From contig NZ_CP124747.1 in the NCBI RefSeq assembly GCF_041860085.1, positions 3,472,001 through 3,536,000 of the forward strand: DNA of 64,000 bases, read 5' to 3'. Every line of letters starts with the position of its first letter. The stretch's first letter is position 1. This DNA comes from Schlesneria sp. DSM 10557 (GTDB lineage: Bacteria; Planctomycetota; Planctomycetia; Planctomycetales; Planctomycetaceae). This document shows positions 18,232 to 50,648 of this stretch, one piece after another. A program made the translations under genes and the position numbers. The notes beneath the pieces were generated by a model. The model saw only the letters and a list, made by a program, of their open reading frames with translations, was not told the origin of the DNA and did not search any database.

Positions 18232-19290
18232 TTGTTGCGGCTACGAGAGAACCCTGGTTGTTTTAAACCAACTCAGGCGCGCGTCGGATTCACCCTTATT
18301 GAGCTGTTGGTCGTGATTGCGATCATTTCCTTGCTGGTCAGTTTGTTGCTGCCGGCTGTTCAGCAGGCACGCGAAGCCGCAAATCGGATCCGCTGTCAGA
18401 ATAACCTGAAGCAGCTTGGCCTCGCAATCCACAATTATCACGACACTCACAGCACCTTTCCTATCGGTGGGTTCGTGCAGCCACGGATCATGTCCAGCGG
18501 AGCACAATTTCCGCAGGCCGGCCCGTCGTTTTTTGTGGGCCTGCTTCCTCACCTCGATCAACAGGTCTTGTATAGCAAGCTCAACCTCTCCGCACCTGGA
18601 AGTGGCGATGTCTCGCTGGGACCAAACGGTCCGGCCGTCCGGGGTGCTTACATCCCAGCGTATCGCTGCCCCAGCTCCACTCTTGCCGAATTCTATCCTG
18701 TCGTTGCGATTCCCGTCCTCATGCCCTCGTATGTCGGCATTTCCGGGGCGACTGCGACTTCCCCAGGCAATCCTGATTTCCCGGAAACACGTGTGAAAAA
18801 TTTCGCCGTGTGCTCTGGTGTGGTCGGCCAGATGTCCTGGGGGGGAGTCCTGCTCGCGAATGAAGTCAGGTCGATGCGCGATGTCCAGGACGGTAGCAGC
18901 AGCACCATTGTGATTGCTGAGTCCTCGGCACCCGTGACTGACGCCACCGGCCGAAAGCTCCGCATGGACGGCGGTTATCCAGTCAGTTGGTTGCGCAGCA
19001 CCGACAGTTTTGGGACAGGCGCAAGCTACCAGAACCCCAACTCAAGGTTAGCTACCCGATGCTACAACCTGACCACGGTTCGTCACCCGGTCGGTATGCG
19101 TGAAGCCCCTGTTGAGGGAAGTGCATGCCAGGCGGGCACTCCGAATCGTCCGATCAACTCAGAACATGCTGGTGGCGCCGGAGCGCTTCAGTGTGATGGG
19201 TCAGTCAGGTTTCTGAGCAGCAGTATGGATATGTACCTGCTCAAGGCCCTGGCGACGCGGGACGACGGAGCCGCGATCAGTCTCGACTGA
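18232..19290 (+). CDS. DUF1559 family protein with prepilin-type N-terminus
   Basis: 352 residues from a TTG start. The type IV prepilin-like segment [19 protein letters not shown] is followed by [32 protein letters not shown], the hallmark of the planctomycete DUF1559 (SBP_bac_10) family, and by the C-terminal [19 protein letters not shown] box. Such proteins occur in large numbers in planctomycetes; the N-terminus implies prepilin peptidase processing and a pilus-like or pseudopilin function, which is unproven. No ATG or GTG lies before the prepilin helix in frame; TTG at 18232 or 18235 is the only choice, and the ribosome site is weak. The Cys-rich secreted protein gene begins 78 bp downstream. 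Confidence 0.88.
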
Positions 19291-41103: not shown

Positions 41104-42258
41104 TCACATCTTCATGCGACGGAAATCCGACGGGGAAACTCCCTCTTTCCGTTTGAATGCGGCACTGAAGTAATCAACGGTCGAATATCCACAACGTCGG
41201 GCGACATCCGCGATCGGAAGTTCGCTCTCGGCGAGCATTCGACGGGCTCGTTCCATCCGGATTCGGGTGATCTCGTGATGGGGACTGCGGCCAATAAATT
41301 CACGAAATGCCGTCTCCAGAGCGGTTCGTGACATGGGTACCAGTTTCAGCACATCCTCGACGTTAATACCATCACAGGCATGCTGCTGGATAAAGCGGAA
41401 GGCGAGACCCACGAAGGGATCCGCTCCCGCTGCGCTGTTGGTCGAGCGACGGGATTCGATCCCCAGTGGTTCCACCCGAACGGGCTTTGACGATCCGTTT
41501 TTCCCGGACATCAACTGGCTCAGAATCTCGGCAGACTCGTAACCGATTTTCTCGGTGTTGGTCGAGACGCTCGTCAACGTGGGATAGCTCAACTCACACA
41601 GCAATTCGTCATTGTTCACCCCGATCACGGCAACCTGATTGGGAACGGAAAGCCCTGCTGCATGGCAGCATCGGAGCAGCAGATTTCCGCAGACGTCGTT
41701 GGCCGACATGATGGCCACAGGATGGGGAAGACTGGTGATCCAGTCCTGAATCCGCTGTAACTCCGCTTCATCCCCGGCTTTCTCGGGATGAGTCAAAAAC
41801 GTGCCGCAATAGGCGAGGTCTTTCTCGGCAATCAGTTTTTGAAAGCAGGTCTCACGCTGGCAGCTCCAGGCGCGTCGAACTGGTCCGAAAAAGGCGAAGT
41901 GGGTATGGCCATTGTTACGAAACTCCTGGACCACCAGTCGAACCACCGACTCATGATTGATCGTGACCCAGGGGACCTGAGGGTCAAAATTGGTGCCGCT
42001 GACATTTACGAAGGGGAGTGACGACGCCTTGATTCGCTGATGGATGTCCCCACACTCGATTCGCGCAATCACACCATCGTAGGAGGACAGATCGTCCAGC
42101 AGCGGCAGCAGGTCGGACGAACGGCCTTCCCGAAGCGTCATCATCCAGTGTCCGTGCGACTGACTGTATGAGGTCACCCCCCGAATCAGCTTCAATGTGA
42201 AAGCGGTCGGAGCTTCGATCAGCAGGAGCACTCGACGGGGAAGTTTTTGATTGGCCAT
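41104..42258 (-). CDS. XylR-family transcription regulator (LacI-like sensor plus AraC HTH)
   Basis: 384 residues. The N-terminal part is a periplasmic-binding-protein-like sensor of the LacI/XylR type (RRVLLLIEAPTAFTLKLIRGV, NDVCGNLLLRCCHAAGLSVPNQVAVIGVNNDELLCELSYPTLTSV). The C-terminal 100 residues are two AraC helix-turn-helices (VEDVLKLVPMSRTALETAFREF, SELPIADVARRCGYSTVDYFSAAFKRKEGVSPSDFRR). This is the XylR organisation, which activates sugar-use genes when a pentose or related sugar binds. It is divergent from the DUF1559 gene at 42807, with phased repeats between them. The ligand cannot be read from sequence. Confidence 0.88.
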   Translation of the reverse strand: MANQKLPRRVLLLIEAPTAFTLKLIRGVTSYSQSHGHWMMTLREGRSSDLLPLLDDLSSYDGVIARIECGDIHQRIKASSLPFVNVSGTNFDPQVPWVTINHESVVRLVVQEFRNNGHTHFAFFGPVRRAWSCQRETCFQKLIAEKDLAYCGTFLTHPEKAGDEAELQRIQDWITSLPHPVAIMSANDVCGNLLLRCCHAAGLSVPNQVAVIGVNNDELLCELSYPTLTSVSTNTEKIGYESAEILSQLMSGKNGSSKPVRVEPLGIESRRSTNSAAGADPFVGLAFRFIQQHACDGINVEDVLKLVPMSRTALETAFREFIGRSPHHEITRIRMERARRMLAESELPIADVARRCGYSTVDYFSAAFKRKEGVSPSDFRRMKM

Positions 42259-42806: not shown

Positions 42807-43817
42807 TTGGCAACGACTCAACCACCCGGCAAACGTGTTCAGTCAGGATTTACGCTGATTGAACTGCTGGTTGTCATTGCCATTATCGCCGTGCTGATCG
42901 CCCTGCTGCTTCCCGCAGTGCAGCAGGCTCGTGAAGCGGCTCGTCGGGCTCAGTGCAAGAACAACCTGAAGCAGATCGGCCTGGCCCTGCATAACTATGA
43001 ATCGACATGGAAGGTCTTCCCAACCCATTCGCTGCAGCCGTATGCCGGTCCCCACTGGAAGGATCGCCGTTATAGCTGGTATACCGCGATTCTCCCGCAC
43101 ATCGATCAGGCGAACGTTTACAACATGTACAACGTCAGCCTCGATTGGCATGACGATGACAATATTCTTGCAGTGGAGTCGAACATTCCCGCGTTTCGCT
43201 GCCCCTCTGCGATGACTCGGACCGGGTTTGAGTGGACATCGCTGATCTACTACCCGGATGCCAGTCCAACTGCGACCTTCGCCACATCCCCTCGCAATTT
43301 TTATTACGGAGGGGTCACCGACTACGCCAACATTGCAGGTATCAGCTCGGCTCTGAACAACACACTGAATCCCAAGTTTTCCGACAATACCAACCTTGGA
43401 GTTCTCCGCAGGGATGTCTCACCCCTCTCGTCGGTCACTGATGGGCTCTCCAATACCGTCATGGTCTCGGAATGCGGTAGTCGTCCTCAGCTTTACCAGA
43501 AAGGTGTCCTGGTACCAGAGGGGTCGCCAAAAACGTGGGGGACCACCGCCACCAAACCTTTCCCCACGGGGGGAGTTTGGGCCAGCCATAACAAAGGCTT
43601 CCTGATCGATGGCGCCCAACCTAACGGTTACACCAATTCGCTCGGTCCTTGCGCAATCAACTGTTCCAATGACAGTGAGATTTACTCATTCCATACCGGG
43701 ATGGCTAATGCGCTCATGGGAGATGGCTCTGTCCGCAGTCTGGGTGCATCGACCTCGTTACCGATGCTCATTAGTCTGATCACCAGCAACGGTGGAGAAG
43801 TCATCTCAGAATTCTAA
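42807..43817 (+). CDS. DUF1559 family protein with prepilin-type N-terminus
   Basis: 336 residues. Start is TTG at 42807, supported by AAGGAACGGAAC just before it. The prepilin-type segment [22 protein letters not shown] and QQAREAARRAQCKNNLKQIGLALHNY are canonical DUF1559; the C-terminal box is FHTGMANALMGDGSVRSLG. Compared with the copy at 18232 it is shorter and more typical. The ExbB-like gene starts 43 bp downstream on the same strand, so it might be transcribed with the chelatase module, though DUF1559 genes are so common that this may be chance. Confidence 0.9.
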   Translation: MATTQPPGKRVQSGFTLIELLVVIAIIAVLIALLLPAVQQAREAARRAQCKNNLKQIGLALHNYESTWKVFPTHSLQPYAGPHWKDRRYSWYTAILPHIDQANVYNMYNVSLDWHDDDNILAVESNIPAFRCPSAMTRTGFEWTSLIYYPDASPTATFATSPRNFYYGGVTDYANIAGISSALNNTLNPKFSDNTNLGVLRRDVSPLSSVTDGLSNTVMVSECGSRPQLYQKGVLVPEGSPKTWGTTATKPFPTGGVWASHNKGFLIDGAQPNGYTNSLGPCAINCSNDSEIYSFHTGMANALMGDGSVRSLGASTSLPMLISLITSNGGEVISEF

Positions 43818-43859: not shown

Positions 43860-44411
43860 ATGTTCGACACGATTCAGGCCGTTATCTACCAGTTCTCGAA
43901 CTTCTTACTCTGGCCATGCTGCGTTCTGTTAATCCTCGGGGTGATTCACACGCTGTTTCTGTTCGGCGGGTTTGTCGTCGAAGGTCTGCAGCGGCGAGGT
44001 GCAGCGAAAGCCCTGTCAGACCCGCTCGAGCCTCCTCCCGTGATGAAACGACGCACCGGGATTGCCCAATACATTCGGCAGCGAAACAGCGACCCTGATT
44101 GCTCGGCCTGGCTGGCCCTGGACCGAACCGAATCCGCCTTGGCGGCAACCGTCGACAAGGCTCGCTTCTGGATCCGCGTCGGCCCAGCCCTCGGTCTTGC
44201 CGGTACGCTGATCCCGCTCGGTCCGGCACTGATGGCCCTGGCAGAGAATAATCTCAAGGCGCTCTCGGCCGGGTTGATTCTGGCGTTCGGAACAACAGTA
44301 CTGGGGCTCTTTTCGGGTTCACTCGGTTGGATTATTTCCAGCGCGCAGGAACGCTGGTATCGCCTCGATCTGGCCGAGATCCGCCATGCTTTGGAGCAAC
44401 ACGATGCGTAG
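43860..44411 (+). CDS. MotA/TolQ/ExbB-family proton channel protein
   Basis: 183 residues with three membrane segments: about 13-41 (SNFLLWPCCVLLILGVIHTLFLFGGFV), 106-126 (RVGPALGLAGTLIPLGPALMAL) and 136-160 (SAGLILAFGTTVLGLFSGSLGWIIS). The cytoplasmic loop between helices 1 and 2 is basic. The GPALGLAGTLIPLGPAL segment is the typical ExbB/TolQ/MotA pore region. It is shorter than TolQ and ExbB. The following DUF2149 gene overlaps it by 8 bp, and that overlaps the CobN-like gene by 4 bp: one coupled operon. Such ExbB/DUF2149/CobN sets are known in hmu-type haem operons of Bacteroidetes and in methanogens; the function here is inferred. Confidence 0.88.
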   Translation: MFDTIQAVIYQFSNFLLWPCCVLLILGVIHTLFLFGGFVVEGLQRRGAAKALSDPLEPPPVMKRRTGIAQYIRQRNSDPDCSAWLALDRTESALAATVDKARFWIRVGPALGLAGTLIPLGPALMALAENNLKALSAGLILAFGTTVLGLFSGSLGWIISSAQERWYRLDLAEIRHALEQHDA

Positions 44412-44751
44412 AAATTCCCGCTCGGGACTGGGACTGCTGCGAGGTGGCGGCGAAGATGACCCGCTGGCGGGGGTCGCCAATCTGTTCGACACCGGAATCG
44501 TATTCGCCCTGGGTTTTCTGGTCGCACTGATCAGCGCTCTCAACCTGCTCGCCATGTTCGATCCCGACAGTAAGGTCACCATCACCACTGAACAGGCGGA
44601 TGGAAGCCTTGAGGTGGTCGTGAAGGATGGCCAGAAAACGACTGTCAGACGAGTGACGAAACAAGTCGGCTCCGGTGACGGAACCCGCCTCGGTGTTGCC
44701 TATCGCCTGGCGGATGGCACAGTGATTTACGTACCCGAGAGTAAAGAGTGA
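44404..44751 (+). CDS. DUF2149 protein, probable ExbD/TolR-like partner
   Basis: 115 residues from the ATG at 44404. A Gly/Arg-rich N-terminus (1-20) leads to one membrane segment at about 28-49 (FDTGIVFALGFLVALISALNLL), then a soluble domain of beta character (KVTITTEQADGSLEVVVKDG). The Asp at 29, right where the helix begins, resembles the functional Asp in ExbD (the FID segment). The alignment LFDTGIVFALGFL against that of ExbD is by eye. It overlaps both neighbours, so it is co-translated with the ExbB-like and CobN-like proteins. The proton-carrying role is an inference. Confidence 0.8.
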   Translation: MRRNSRSGLGLLRGGGEDDPLAGVANLFDTGIVFALGFLVALISALNLLAMFDPDSKVTITTEQADGSLEVVVKDGQKTTVRRVTKQVGSGDGTRLGVAYRLADGTVIYVPESKE

Positions 44752-47700
44752 GCGACGCCCCCTCAGACGGAAAGCCTTTTGACCGCTCGTGGACTCAGTT
44801 CGCTGCCGGTGGCTTTCTGGTAACGCTGTTCCTGAGTGCCGGAATCTGGTTCGGGCTGGAAGTCCGTTCGCGGCCTGCACCCCGCTCGGTTTCCATCCTC
44901 ATCATCTGTTCTGACCCGGCAGTGGAAAGCCTCAACCGGGGAATCGACCGTCTGCTCTCCAGCGATCCTGGTCTGGCCCGCGAAGTCAGTTTTCAAGTTC
45001 GCTCGCCGGGGAACACTGTCGCCGACGCGGAAGTTCCTCAAACCGATCTGCTGCTGGTGGAATTACTCGAAGCGAAGTGGGTCACGGCCAACGAGCCGAT
45101 CATTCAGGAATCGCACGCGCGGACGCGGCTGGCTTTTGGTCCCAGCGGTCCAGCCATCAACGAAAGTACGCTGACGCAGTTCGGTCTGAAGCAGGACGAT
45201 CTCGTCGAACCCTACTGGTCAGAAGGGGGACCATCCGACGTTGAGCAAATGCTGCGGCTGATACTCAAGCGGTATGCGGGCTATCTCGATCTGGAAGTGG
45301 CTCCTCCGGTCAAACGGCCGGAACAAGGCTATGTCGCCTGGATCGAAGGGGAACCTCGACTGGTCGAAACATGGTCCGAGTGGCAGGTGCTCACGAAGTT
45401 CGACCCCACCCGGCCATCTGTCGCCATTCTCGACTTTGCCACGCGAGCCCGTCGTGAAGTCCTGGCCGTTCCGAAAGCGATCGCCGATGCGTGCCAGCAG
45501 CAGGGAATTCAGCCGGTCGTCTGTTTTGGTCAACCTGCCAGCAAGGCCATTCGACAGCTCTTGCTCGACGAAGCGGGCAAACCTCGAATTGATGCCATCA
45601 TCTCGTTGCATCTGAAGTTCACCGATAAAGAGGCCGAGGCGACCCTGTCGCAACTGGATGTCCCGATCATCAACGCGATCCGCATCTATGGCCGAACGGT
45701 CGACGAGTGGCGTGACAGCTCGCAAGGCCTGACCACAGGGGAAGTCGCGTGGCAACTGGCCGTCCCGGAACTGGTCGGTCTGGCGCCGCACAATGTCGTC
45801 GCCGGACTTGAGCCGACTCGCAGTGGGGTCGAGGCCCAGCCGATTGCCGAACGTGTCACTCGTGTGGCAGCTCGCGCCCGGGCGCTCAGCGAATTGCGTC
45901 GGACTCCACCCGCACAGCGTCGCGTTGCTTTGATGTACTGGAACTATCCGCCGGGCAAGCAGAACGTCGGAGCGAGTTACCTGAACGTCGTCAGAAGCAT
46001 TCCGGTCATGCTGCAAGCGATGCGGGATGCCGGCTATCAGGTCGAGAACTTTTCCGACGCCGTTGAGATCGAAAAACGGGTCGTTGATCGAGGACGTAAT
46101 ATCGCGCGCTGGGCACCGGGTGAACTTGAACGGCTCATCGACGCAGGTGGTGTGGTGACGATCCCTGTCTCAACCTATCAGACCTGGTTCGACGCGTTGC
46201 CACGCCGCTTTCGTGACGACGTGACCAAGCATTGGGGACGCCCCGAAACAGCCGACATCATGACCACCCGGCTCGGTGGTGAACTTCATCTGGTGCTGCC
46301 GACGATTGAACTGGGAAACATTGTTCTGCTGGTTCAGCCTGACCGGGGTCGAACACAGGACCTCGCCGCACTCTACCAGACGCAGGACCTGCCACCCCAC
46401 CACCAGTACATCGCGGCGTACTTGTGGTTGCAGAAGGAATTCAAAGCGCATGCCGTCATTCATACCGGCACTCATGGAACGCACGAGTGGCTGAGCGGTA
46501 AGGAATCAGGTCTGGCCGGATTCGACGCGGGAGAAGTCCTCGCGGGGGATTTGCCAATCCTCTATCCCTACATCATGGACGACATCGGGGAAGGAATCGT
46601 GGCCAAGCGACGAGGTGCCGCGACCATTATTGATCATCTGACCCCTGCCTTGGGGACAAGTTCCCTTCCCCCGGAACTGCAGTCACTTAAGGAACTCATT
46701 CAACGCTGGCGAGATGCGCGCGCAACCGGTGGCGAAACGGTCGCTCAGGCGCAAGCCAGCATCGACGCTGAAGTCGTCCTCCGCGGGCTCGATAAGGATC
46801 TTGCCGATCGCGGGTGGAGCGAAGCGGATCGCAGTCATCCCGACGCAGAACGGCGCATCAGCACGCTGGAGGATTATCTGGAACAGATTCAGGCCCAGAG
46901 CATTCCTTTCGGCATGCACACGTTCGGGGTTTCTCCCATCGACGAGCGGTTGAATGGATTTGTCGATCTGATCCGTGAAGCACACGACGAGAAAACGGCC
47001 TCCACGGGCCGACAAAACCTGACCGACAGCGGCCCTGCCGAGCTGGCCGCCCTGCTCCATGGACTGGGCGGGGGATACATCCGCCCCGGTCCCGGTAACG
47101 ACCCCGTCCGCAATCCCGCAGCCCTGCCCACCGGACGGGATTTCTACGCATTTGACCCTCGGACCATTCCCGCAGTCACGGCAGAAACGCTGGGAAATCA
47201 GCTCGCCGCCAGACTCGTCGATGAATTTCATTCCAGCGAAGGTCAGTGGCCGAAGAAGTTTGCGCTGCAGGTCTGGGGGGTCGAAACCATCCGCCATGCC
47301 GGCGTTCAGGAAGCCCAGGCTCTGGCTTTAGTCGGTGTGCGGGCCAAACGGGACAAACAGGGACGAGTCGCCGGTCTGGAACTGATTCCCCGCGAAGAAC
47401 TCGGGCGTCCGCGTGTCGATGTCGTCATGCACGGAACCAGCCTCTATCGCGACACGTTTCCCGTGCTGGTCGAACTGTTTGATCAAGCCGTGCAACTGGC
47501 GGCAGATTCACCTGAGCCCGACAATCCGATCCGCGCACACATCGAACAACTGACCGCCGAACTCGTAGCGGGTGGCATGAATATTGACGAAGCCCGGACC
47601 AGAGCCCGCATTCGCTTCTTCGCAGAACCGAGCGGCATGCATGACAGCAAACTGGCCGCAATGGCATCTGCCAGCGGCTCGTGGGACACGGAAGACCAAG

Positions 47701-48728
47701 TTGCCGACAACTACATCCGGCGGATGGGGCATGGCTACGGACAAGGGACTTGGGGGCAGAGCATGGAGACCGAGTTTCGTGCCGCACTGGCCGGCACGCA
47801 GCGGATCGTCCATACACGTTCAAGCAAACTCTATGCGACACTGGATAACGATGACTATTTCGGCTACGGCGGCAGTATCGCGCTGGGGGTCCGCCGAGTC
47901 GATGGCGGGAAGAGTCCCCCGATGCTGGTGACGGATCTGAGGACACCCGGTCGGGAACGACATGAACCGATTGAACGCTTTCTCGGACAGGAATTTCGCT
48001 CGCGCTTGCTGAACCCCGAGTACATCAAAGGGATGCAGCAGGAAGGGTACGCCGGGGCACGCGAAGTCTGGAAAAGTACGGAATACCTCTGGGGCTGGCA
48101 GGTAGTCTACCCCGAGACAGTCGGGCCGCAGAAGTGGCAGGAATTGCACGAAGTCTGGCTGAAAGATCGTTACGATCTCAAACTCGAAGACTTCTTCCAT
48201 GCTCACAATCCCCACGCCCGCGAGGGGATGGCGGGACGATTGCTGGAAGTTATTCGCAAGGGGTACTGGGATCCCGACCAGCAAACACGTGAGGAACTGG
48301 CCGAAATCTATGTCACCAGTATCGTCGAAAATGGAGTCGCCTGTGACACGCTCACCTGCGACAACCCCGAACTTCAGACGTTCACAAAGGGGATCGCGGA
48401 GACTGCCGCAGGACTTGATCCGAAACTGATCGCTCAATGGCTGCGTCAGGTCGAAACGGCGACCGGGAAACAACTCGAACAGCGACTGACAGAACGGCAA
48501 ACCGACAAAGCCGCCTGGCACGACCCGGCCAACCGCGACAAGTCCAATGACGGCAGCTCACCCGAGAACTCACAGGTGAGCGGCTATCTGATGGAAGAGA
48601 CGCAGTCTGAAATCCAGATCCAGAGTGATCCTTCCCCTGTGCCAGCTACCCCCTGGGCGCTGATTCTCTCGCTCACCCTGTCCCCCGTCATGACAGGGGC
48701 CGTCGCGCGGCTGAAGCGGGCCGGCTGA
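44748..48728 (+). CDS. CobN/HmuS-type large chelatase subunit, membrane-anchored
   Basis: 1326 residues from GTG at 44748, which overlaps the DUF2149 stop. Predicted membrane segments stand at both ends: about 18-37 (FAAGGFLVTLFLSAGIWFGL) and 1302-1320 (PWALILSLTLSPVMTGAVA). Between them is a CobN/BchH-family body with VALMYWNYPPGKQNVGASYLN, the family box HTGTHGTHEW (572-581) followed by LSGKESGL, and YLWGWQVVYPETVG. CobN inserts cobalt in cobalamin synthesis with CobS/CobT; no such genes or corrin genes are present. The two anchors and ExbB-like neighbours are as in HmuS-type haem dechelatases. Positive C-terminal charges (RLKRAG) suggest the main body is periplasmic. The tetrapyrrole is unknown. 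Confidence 0.88.
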   Translation: MSDAPSDGKPFDRSWTQFAAGGFLVTLFLSAGIWFGLEVRSRPAPRSVSILIICSDPAVESLNRGIDRLLSSDPGLAREVSFQVRSPGNTVADAEVPQTDLLLVELLEAKWVTANEPIIQESHARTRLAFGPSGPAINESTLTQFGLKQDDLVEPYWSEGGPSDVEQMLRLILKRYAGYLDLEVAPPVKRPEQGYVAWIEGEPRLVETWSEWQVLTKFDPTRPSVAILDFATRARREVLAVPKAIADACQQQGIQPVVCFGQPASKAIRQLLLDEAGKPRIDAIISLHLKFTDKEAEATLSQLDVPIINAIRIYGRTVDEWRDSSQGLTTGEVAWQLAVPELVGLAPHNVVAGLEPTRSGVEAQPIAERVTRVAARARALSELRRTPPAQRRVALMYWNYPPGKQNVGASYLNVVRSIPVMLQAMRDAGYQVENFSDAVEIEKRVVDRGRNIARWAPGELERLIDAGGVVTIPVSTYQTWFDALPRRFRDDVTKHWGRPETADIMTTRLGGELHLVLPTIELGNIVLLVQPDRGRTQDLAALYQTQDLPPHHQYIAAYLWLQKEFKAHAVIHTGTHGTHEWLSGKESGLAGFDAGEVLAGDLPILYPYIMDDIGEGIVAKRRGAATIIDHLTPALGTSSLPPELQSLKELIQRWRDARATGGETVAQAQASIDAEVVLRGLDKDLADRGWSEADRSHPDAERRISTLEDYLEQIQAQSIPFGMHTFGVSPIDERLNGFVDLIREAHDEKTASTGRQNLTDSGPAELAALLHGLGGGYIRPGPGNDPVRNPAALPTGRDFYAFDPRTIPAVTAETLGNQLAARLVDEFHSSEGQWPKKFALQVWGVETIRHAGVQEAQALALVGVRAKRDKQGRVAGLELIPREELGRPRVDVVMHGTSLYRDTFPVLVELFDQAVQLAADSPEPDNPIRAHIEQLTAELVAGGMNIDEARTRARIRFFAEPSGMHDSKLAAMASASGSWDTEDQVADNYIRRMGHGYGQGTWGQSMETEFRAALAGTQRIVHTRSSKLYATLDNDDYFGYGGSIALGVRRVDGGKSPPMLVTDLRTPGRERHEPIERFLGQEFRSRLLNPEYIKGMQQEGYAGAREVWKSTEYLWGWQVVYPETVGPQKWQELHEVWLKDRYDLKLEDFFHAHNPHAREGMAGRLLEVIRKGYWDPDQQTREELAEIYVTSIVENGVACDTLTCDNPELQTFTKGIAETAAGLDPKLIAQWLRQVETATGKQLEQRLTERQTDKAAWHDPANRDKSNDGSSPENSQVSGYLMEETQSEIQIQSDPSPVPATPWALILSLTLSPVMTGAVARLKRAG

Positions 48729-49766: not shown

Positions 49767-50648
49767 ATGACCGACATGGCAGAAAAGGGCATTCGTGCTG
49801 CCCAGTTGGGGATCCTCATTAATACGCTGCTCGCCATGGCGAAACTGCTGGCGGGCGTGATCGGTAACTCCTACGCCCTGATTGCAGACGCGGTCGAATC
49901 GGGCAGTGATGTCTTTTCATCGATCATTGTGATGAGCGGATTAAAGATCGCCCGGCGTGATCCCACGGACGAATTTCCGTTCGGTTTCGGACGTGCGGAA
50001 ACGCTGGCGACGGCTGTGGTGGCTCTCATGTTGATCGGTACCGCGATTGGGATTGCGATTGAAGCAGTGCGGGAAATCCGTACGCCGCACCACATGCCAG
50101 CCCCCTGGACTCTATTCGTCCTGGCCGTCGTGGTGACAGTCAAATGGCTGGTCTCCCGGCGGGTCCACGCGGTGGGTGTCGAAACAGGAAGCGGAGCCAT
50201 CGAGGCGGATGCCTGGCACCACCTGAGTGACGCCATCACATCCACGGCGGCGTTCTTTGGTATTTCAATCGCCTTATTGGGTGGACCCGGTTGGGAACAC
50301 GCCGATGACTGGGCGGCCCTGCTCGCCACATCCGTCATTGCGTTCAATGGCGTCCGAATTCTTCGTTCGGCTCTGCGTGACCTGATGGACGCGTCCCCTG
50401 GCGACGAGATCGTCCAGTCGGTTCGAACGGTGTCAGAGCGGGTGCCGGAGGTGCTGGCGATCGAGAAACTGCTGGTTCGCCGTTCGGGAATGTTCTATCT
50501 GGTCGATATCCACGTGCAGGCAGCCCCCTCCATGCCCCTGAGCAATGCCCATAGCCTGGGAGGACGAGTGAAGGCCGAAATCCTGCAGGCCCTCCCCCAG
50601 GTTCGCCATGTGCTGGTGCATATGGAACCCTTCACCAGTCCCGGTTAG
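49767..50648 (+). CDS. Cation diffusion facilitator (CDF) family metal transporter
   Basis: 293 residues. Five to six membrane helices precede a cytoplasmic C-terminal domain from about 210 (VRTVSERVPEVLAIEKLLVRR, LVDIHVQAAPSMPLSNAHSLG). The metal site motifs are ADAVESGSDVFSS in helix 2 (Glu-x3-Asp rather than the more common His/Asp-x3-Asp) and AWHHLSDAITS in helix 5 (His-x3-Asp). The C-terminal DIHVQ and the final RHVLVHMEPF match the zinc-binding domain of CDF exporters. It exports divalent metal such as Zn, Fe, Mn or Co. The metal is not readable. Confidence 0.9.
   Translation: MTDMAEKGIRAAQLGILINTLLAMAKLLAGVIGNSYALIADAVESGSDVFSSIIVMSGLKIARRDPTDEFPFGFGRAETLATAVVALMLIGTAIGIAIEAVREIRTPHHMPAPWTLFVLAVVVTVKWLVSRRVHAVGVETGSGAIEADAWHHLSDAITSTAAFFGISIALLGGPGWEHADDWAALLATSVIAFNGVRILRSALRDLMDASPGDEIVQSVRTVSERVPEVLAIEKLLVRRSGMFYLVDIHVQAAPSMPLSNAHSLGGRVKAEILQALPQVRHVLVHMEPFTSPG

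Follow-up and report, generated by a model that had tools for sequence, protein, structure and literature searches.

A membrane-anchored CobN-like chelatase gene with ExbB-like, DUF2149 and DUF1559 neighbours in Schlesneria sp. DSM 10557, possibly linked to corrinoids

Genes at the locus

The stretch analysed here (the window) comprises 64,000 nt of Schlesneria sp. DSM 10557 (NZ_CP124747.1, 3,472,001-3,536,000), and coordinates are counted from window position 1. It carries three genes on the same strand, referred to below as the trio, which encode an ExbB/TolQ-like protein, a DUF2149 protein and a membrane-anchored class I chelatase large subunit of the CobN/HmuS/ChlH superfamily (Table 1). 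A sequence-only reading of the same DNA had described them as a proton-linked tetrapyrrole chelatase acting outside the cytoplasm, with a lean towards haem use as in hmu operons. The overlaps of 8 and 4 bp that it reported were recovered: the ExbB-like and DUF2149 genes overlap by 8 bp with the ATG at 44404 (26 bp if translation began at the in-frame ATG further upstream, at 44386), and the DUF2149 gene shares GTGA with the chelatase gene, whose start codon is GTG. The HTGTHGTHEW box in a protein of 1326 residues and the nature of both neighbours were confirmed, the latter by Pfam, and it is correct that no outer-membrane receptor gene adjoins the trio. As for the membrane segments placed at both ends of the chelatase, the N-terminal one is clear and the C-terminal one borderline, as judged by Kyte-Doolittle values only; both are stronger in many relatives, though not all.

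That reading overlooked a DUF1559 gene which ends 42 bp before the ExbB-like gene on the same strand, and this partner is the new element reported here. The same block is present in another genome of the genus (G416, locus L200), with identities of 72% for DUF1559, 73% for the ExbB-like protein, 79% for DUF2149 and 74% for the chelatase.

Conservation of the trio and position of the chelatase

With a CobN alignment as query, the trio was surveyed in 84,980 species, each represented by one genome, and the best 80 of at least 575 confirmed relatives were inspected. Eighteen of these loci were set aside for contig ends, and loci with short flanks were counted only if both partners were seen. ExbB-like and DUF2149 genes accompany the chelatase gene in 62 of the 62 informative loci; the trio loci belong, by record title, to Bacteroidota, Proteobacteria, Nitrospira, anammox bacteria and methanogenic archaea. 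Since all three genes keep together throughout, methanogens included, they are a conserved system and not chance neighbours. Among Planctomycetota, DUF2149 was found in 30 of 294 sampled genomes, and a chelatase gene lies nearby in 30 of the 33 DUF2149 loci fetched, the exceptions being L038 and L039, both at contig ends, and L044. This last locus, from an f44-family genome, has a partial DUF2149 match beside which no ExbB or chelatase gene was found. In the family of the window, 15 of the 150 genomes searched hold a relative at E 1e-30, and the window chelatase has a close orthologue in G416 alone.

Two unusual arrangements were observed. In a deltaproteobacterial metagenome-assembled genome (L110:1991-22795) one ExbB/DUF2149 pair is followed by four tandem chelatase genes, and at L045:10890-15887 an anchored chelatase homologue without the HxGTHG box keeps both partners.

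The best solved relative of the window chelatase is HmuS (PDB 9d26, E 8.7e-124). Its HTGTHG keeps the histidine of the HmuS HFG(T/A)HG box (His-538), the second residue being different; HmuS with the H538A exchange is reported to be inactive (PMC12583661). Further on, HmuS has LSLDHxxEFMGG with His-1209, one of two histidines holding the cation, whereas the window protein has LDNDDYFGYGG, which aligns an aspartate with His-1209, as in CobN. HLK in the window protein places a histidine at HmuS His-254 (HGR, the head/neck haem site); Met-79 of that site falls outside the aligned part. The aligned stretches are separated by residues 694-923 in HmuS (about 230) and by 739-754 in the window protein (16), so the stretch with the HmuS methionine-rich insertion is missing; there are 18 methionines in the 1326 residues. 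The C-terminal cysteine pair C1199/C1204 recurs in the HmuS-type proteins L047 and L049, and the aligned CobN (cytoplasmic) and BchH proteins lack it.

Against the CobN equivalog model TIGR02257 the window protein scores 560 bits and fails the cut-off of 822, which a control, the CobN of locus L202, passes at 1215. The sequence-only reading had also pointed to CobS as informative: its model TIGR01650 has no match in the genome (CobT and ChlI/D were not searched genome-wide), and GATase_3 gave two weak partial matches only. A CobST-dependent CobN identity was rejected on the lack of a CobS match, and a use of this protein in cobalamin synthesis on the CobS and GATase_3 results. Neither of the outcomes which that reading had named as contrary, CobS/CobT with a complete cobalamin pathway or absence of the trio in relatives, appeared.

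In trees made with FastTree and rooted on BchH, the anchored chelatases separate from cytoplasmic CobN (support 1.0). The window protein falls in what we call the D clade (1.0) and, within it, in a sub-clade (1.0) with G416, L036/L064, L068, Niastella L090 and Runella L193. HmuS of B. theta itself was absent from the trees and the HmuS side is marked by L047 and L049, which have the HmuS motif and fall outside the D clade. The second chelatase of the genome (L004, 6763-11049), a protein of 1428 residues with a LASKY motif, encoded at a locus with the gene order S-U-V, is found on this L047/L049 side (0.992). A further chelatase type, in which M/I-D-x-TENFEYQG replaces the second catalytic motif, was seen at L048:5718-11009 and L204, in G238 and G378.

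Cobalamin riboswitches and DUF1559 genes

An Rfam scan covered 38 hand-picked loci. Among the 22 scanned D-clade loci outside the sub-clade of the window, 11 have a cobalamin riboswitch that precedes the trio on its own strand, at distances of up to about 8 kb; the association is one of position and strand, and L055 was counted from an upstream riboswitch pair seen in a separate comparison of Planctomycetota. Other anchored branches had none upstream in the seven bacterial loci scanned (L135 has two, on the other strand); the single archaeal locus scanned has none. The Planctomycetota comparison gave a riboswitch at 9/11 D-clade loci outside the sub-clade, 0/3 inside it and 0/14 non-D-clade loci, L050 among these 14 not being in the tree (its gene is split). 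Genes recurring near the 80 survey loci were DUF2162 (22), Peripla_BP_2 (13), CobQ-like (9), CbiM and CbiQ (6 each), CbiK (5), CbiD (3) and corrinoid adenosyltransferase (3); Pfam supplied the name for one example of each, and the counts are without a background control.

In the family of the window, all 17 anchored-chelatase loci fetched have a DUF1559 gene no more than 0.8 kb from the trio or chelatase, and 18/18 have one when the cytoplasmic CobN locus L202 is added. The intervals separating DUF1559 from its neighbour, the longest being 0.8 kb in L207, were not gene-called. The 18 loci leave out the fragment G388:C390, and in L206 and L213 the sequence stops too early to show ExbB/DUF2149. 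Outside the family the pattern fails, DUF1559 being present at 5 of the 33 Planctomycetota DUF2149 loci, of which 4 are in the family.

Of 40 cobalamin riboswitches sampled across the class, 19 are followed by DUF1559 as the first long gene; the sample was made of all 15 in the family besides those of this genome and G238, and of 25 hand-picked others, 5 from family f2. Within the window family this holds for 11/15, which with two of three in the own genome (the third precedes a ribonucleotide reductase-like gene, by eye) and the only one in G238 gives 14/19. Three of the five riboswitches fetched from family f2 stand before a TonB-dependent receptor gene (L169, L170, L172).

In a tree of 65 DUF1559 sequences the copies largely group by chelatase type, with L207 as an exception. 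The window copy falls in a clade with riboswitch-linked copies (0.994), nearest to those of G416 and L202 (1.0). Of the tree labels, L169 is tagged as riboswitch-linked although it is on the opposite strand and hence not linked, and among the copies tagged as trio-linked four are the second DUF1559 gene at the locus concerned. The operon at L202 reads riboswitch-DUF1559-CobN-ChlI/D-CobQ-CobO-CobT-CobU. Therefore, within one bacterial family, the same DUF1559 group is found both with a cytoplasmic chelatase next to an AAA+ motor gene and with an anchored chelatase next to an ExbB-type motor gene. The base rate of DUF1559, about 1.4% of genes, rests on an assumed gene number, and p-values obtained from it with loci taken as independent are not relied on. 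For DUF1559, 74 genes are reported in R. baltica (PMC2754498), and in P. limnophila its 68 paralogues form the largest group (PMC10632474); the portions of these two papers examined do not tie it to B12.

Some features stand apart from these results. The window holds a second DUF1559 gene (18232-19290) at a distance from the trio, and in the tree it clusters with background copies. L148:5583-6209, which lies downstream of a riboswitch and its DUF1559 gene, encodes a DUF6580 membrane protein weakly like a cobalt ABC component, possibly a B12 transporter. In the own genome a secreted DUF4465/PEP-CTERM protein (L149:4716-5699) follows a riboswitch DUF1559 gene, and proteins resembling it by eye follow three other riboswitches (L158, L159, L161). 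The XylR-like regulator gene beyond the DUF1559-trio block is found at the same place in G416 (70% identical), a synteny that may be due to chance. Downstream of the trio no gene is common to the window and G416 within the stretch compared; the window has there a cation diffusion facilitator gene (FieF/MamB-like, 49767-50648), with no counterpart found beside the G416 trio.

Table 1. Features of the locus and related regions (window coordinates unless a locus or genome is named)
Feature	Position	Strand	Basis and remarks
ExbB/TolQ-like proton-channel protein, HmuU type	43860..44411	+	MotA_ExbB PF01618, E 4.4e-8
DUF2149, HmuV type, one membrane helix	44404..44751	+	PF09919, E 1.8e-27; proposed ExbD-like partner
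Conserved Asp29 of DUF2149	44488-44490	+	Homologue alignment
Membrane-anchored class I chelatase large subunit, 1326 aa	44748..48728	+	CobN-Mg_chel PF02514, E 2.4e-293
N-terminal membrane segment, residues 19-37	44802..44858	+	Kyte-Doolittle 1.77
HTGTHGTHEW box, residues 572-581, with equivalent of HmuS catalytic His-538	46461..46490	+	Alignment to 9d26
LDNDD motif, residues 1032-1036, Asp at HmuS His-1209 place	47841..47855	+	Alignment
C-terminal pair C1199/C1204	48342..48359	+	Alignment
C-terminal membrane segment, residues 1304-1322, borderline	48657..48713	+	Kyte-Doolittle 1.56
DUF1559, pilin-like N-terminal methylation motif	42807..43817	+	Pfam PF07596; proposed tetrapyrrole-binding partner in place of TonB receptor
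XylR-like regulator (periplasmic-binding-like domain and AraC helix-turn-helix)	41104..42258	-	Pfam; divergent, operon membership uncertain
Second anchored chelatase locus: small Cys/His-rich lipoprotein-like gene, DUF1559, CobN-like, ExbB, DUF2149	L004:5821-12450 = own genome 4943820-4950449	-	
Cobalamin riboswitch regions	Own genome 325247-326544, 1228566-1229846, 3782680-3785988		Two precede DUF1559
Runella slithyformis plasmid: hypA-hypB-hypF-receptor-weakly NicO-like-ExbB-DUF2149-CobN-hypC-hypD-hypE	L193:1349-21798		Hydrogenase further on

Possible function and competing explanations

We propose, at about even confidence, that the four genes encode one machine. The chelatase subunit would be fixed to the inner membrane by its anchors, the bulk of the protein lying in the periplasm, and its own ExbB-DUF2149 motor would drive it by proton motive force, as the AAA+ ATPases CobST and ChlID drive cytoplasmic CobN and ChlH. 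The neighbouring DUF1559 protein would capture a corrinoid or carry it across the outer membrane and so occupy, in receptor-less planctomycetes, the place of the TonB-dependent receptor of other phyla. A B12-like substrate rather than haem is suggested because the DUF1559 family often follows B12 switches in these bacteria and the DUF1559 gene here stands in the position of the usual receptor gene. The Asp-Asp motif known from CobN, the riboswitches of D-clade relatives and the cobalt and corrinoid genes recurring near the loci point the same way, and we put the chances that the substrate is a corrinoid (cobalt tetrapyrrole) at roughly half; the reaction could be metal removal, insertion or exchange. 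Riboswitch-controlled corrinoid capture is the task of BtuB-type receptors, from which DUF1559 differs in being pilin-like and not a beta-barrel.

Conserved threonine and aspartate residues in ExbB and ExbD carry protons. Here Thr116 of the ExbB-like protein is found in 94/94 and Thr146 in 81/94 aligned homologues, and Asp29 of DUF2149 in 93/93, a set to which G416 does not belong. An ExbB-like protein with conserved membrane threonines and a one-helix partner with a conserved aspartate is also the plan of the ExbBD, TolQR and MotAB motors; the difference is that DUF2149 matched ExbD only weakly here, and therefore we infer the motor role. HmuV has been called ExbD-like (PMC10100974), and together with two other proteins it was taken there as diagnostic of haem transport.

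In the published model HmuU/HmuV energise the receptor HmuR (PMC10100974, PMC12583661), and in the portions of the hmu and HmuS literature examined proton motive force is tied to receptor transport. Applied to the window, the pair would energise an outer-membrane receptor and the chelatase would be a passive neighbour. Receptor-like genes do occur in 44 of the 66 bacterial loci surveyed, and 23 of 26 trio genomes searched have a TonB-dependent receptor match. Nevertheless PF00593 has no match in the own genome or in G238, a genome of the same family, each of which holds two trios. Archaea have no outer membrane, and none of the 14 archaeal loci has a receptor-like gene. Because receptor-less genomes and archaeal loci keep the trio, and one pair can accompany up to four chelatase genes, we assign the putative motor to the enzyme and consider the receptor-powering explanation extremely improbable.

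Removal of iron from haem in the periplasm, as by the HmuS of Bacteroidota hmu operons, has more in its favour. HmuS and the window protein share the superfamily, the anchors, the ExbB-like and DUF2149 partners, the His-538 box, the cysteine pair and the lack of CobST, and a histidine is aligned at His-254. However, this last is absent in the sub-clade members L090 and L193, the place of His-1209 is taken by aspartate and there is no room for the methionine-rich insertion. The gene order is U-V-S, DUF1559 adjoins instead of HmuY, HmuR or HmuT, and the protein lies outside the HmuS branch while the other copy of the genome lies on the HmuS side. With the riboswitch and cobalt/B12 context of its D-clade relatives, these features led us to set HmuS membership aside, and a haem dechelatase seems unlikely. 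The proton-linked tetrapyrrole chelatase outside the cytoplasm put forward by the sequence-only reading is well founded as an interpretation, given the conserved trio, its hallmarks and the lack of a CobS match; its haem lean is what we do not favour. From the CobN cobaltochelatase, with which it shares the superfamily and the Asp-Asp motif, the window protein differs in its anchors, its score below the cut-off and in having ExbB/DUF2149 where CobN has an AAA+ motor. A closer parallel is the cobN-exbB-exbD-tonB cluster of Geobacter lovleyi pSZ77, where a CobN without CobS/CobT stands next to ExbB; it has receptor genes and TonB, and the authors link it to cobalamin metabolism and leave its role open (PMC3403914).

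The fold could also serve without catalysis, binding a corrinoid that the motor, using the proton gradient, hands to an inner-membrane transporter. The riboswitch control of relatives suits uptake, and Peripla_BP_2, FecCD and DUF2162 transporter genes recur nearby; retention of the catalytic histidine of HTGTHG and of the Asp-Asp motif makes this decidedly unlikely. Less probable again is a nickel-scavenging role of the sub-clade, in which the metal would be released from a nickel tetrapyrrole or an organic chelate and supplied to nickel enzymes, as the trio within the hyp operon of the Runella slithyformis plasmid might suggest. This is a single case; the [NiFe]-hydrogenase model PF00374 has no match in the own genome (urease was not searched), no nickel gene was read by eye among the open reading frames of L068 and L090, and the window DUF1559 belongs to the corrinoid-linked group.

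Several observations weigh against the corrinoid machine that we propose. In the sub-clade of the window none of the seven scanned loci has a cobalamin riboswitch; none was found in the 20 kb scanned at the window locus, and the nearest in the own genome is about 265 kb away. A single family supplies eight of the nine Planctomycetota riboswitch cases, and fragmentation affects several of the 14 assemblies used for comparison. Within the sub-clade, L036/L064, from outside the family, have neither DUF1559 nor a receptor-like gene nearby, and the Runella trio sits inside a [NiFe]-hydrogenase maturation operon. G416 has glutamate at the Asp29 position of DUF2149, and hhalign pairs this aspartate with that of ExbD in a weak local match only (E 0.005, probability 7%). 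Removal of cobalt from an intact corrin is, moreover, chemically hard.

The literature compared, each source in part, included HmuS biochemistry (PMC12583661), P. gingivalis HmuS (PMC13227078), hmu expression (PMC10434189), the B. theta hmu operon (PMC10100974), B. fragilis BtuS (PMC6460266), cobalt (a review, PMC7689651), the planctomycete outer membrane (PMC3422733) and Chlorobium (PMC8620254); the two HmuS papers do not mention planctomycetes.

More generally, and tentatively, at less than even confidence, class I chelatases may work with two interchangeable motors, a cytoplasmic AAA+ one and an external ExbB-DUF2149 one, and in receptor-less planctomycetes the pilin-like DUF1559 family may include the corrinoid and tetrapyrrole uptake proteins that replace TonB-dependent receptors, each subfamily paired with one chelatase type. 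If the proposal is true, a corrinoid-linked branch distinct from HmuS exists among proteins all annotated as CobN. HmuU/HmuV-type proteins would then power a periplasmic enzyme instead of a receptor, and their retention in archaea would be accounted for. The proposal would also provide a first testable role for DUF1559 and would bear on the uptake of B12-like molecules in planctomycetes that lack TonB-dependent receptors.

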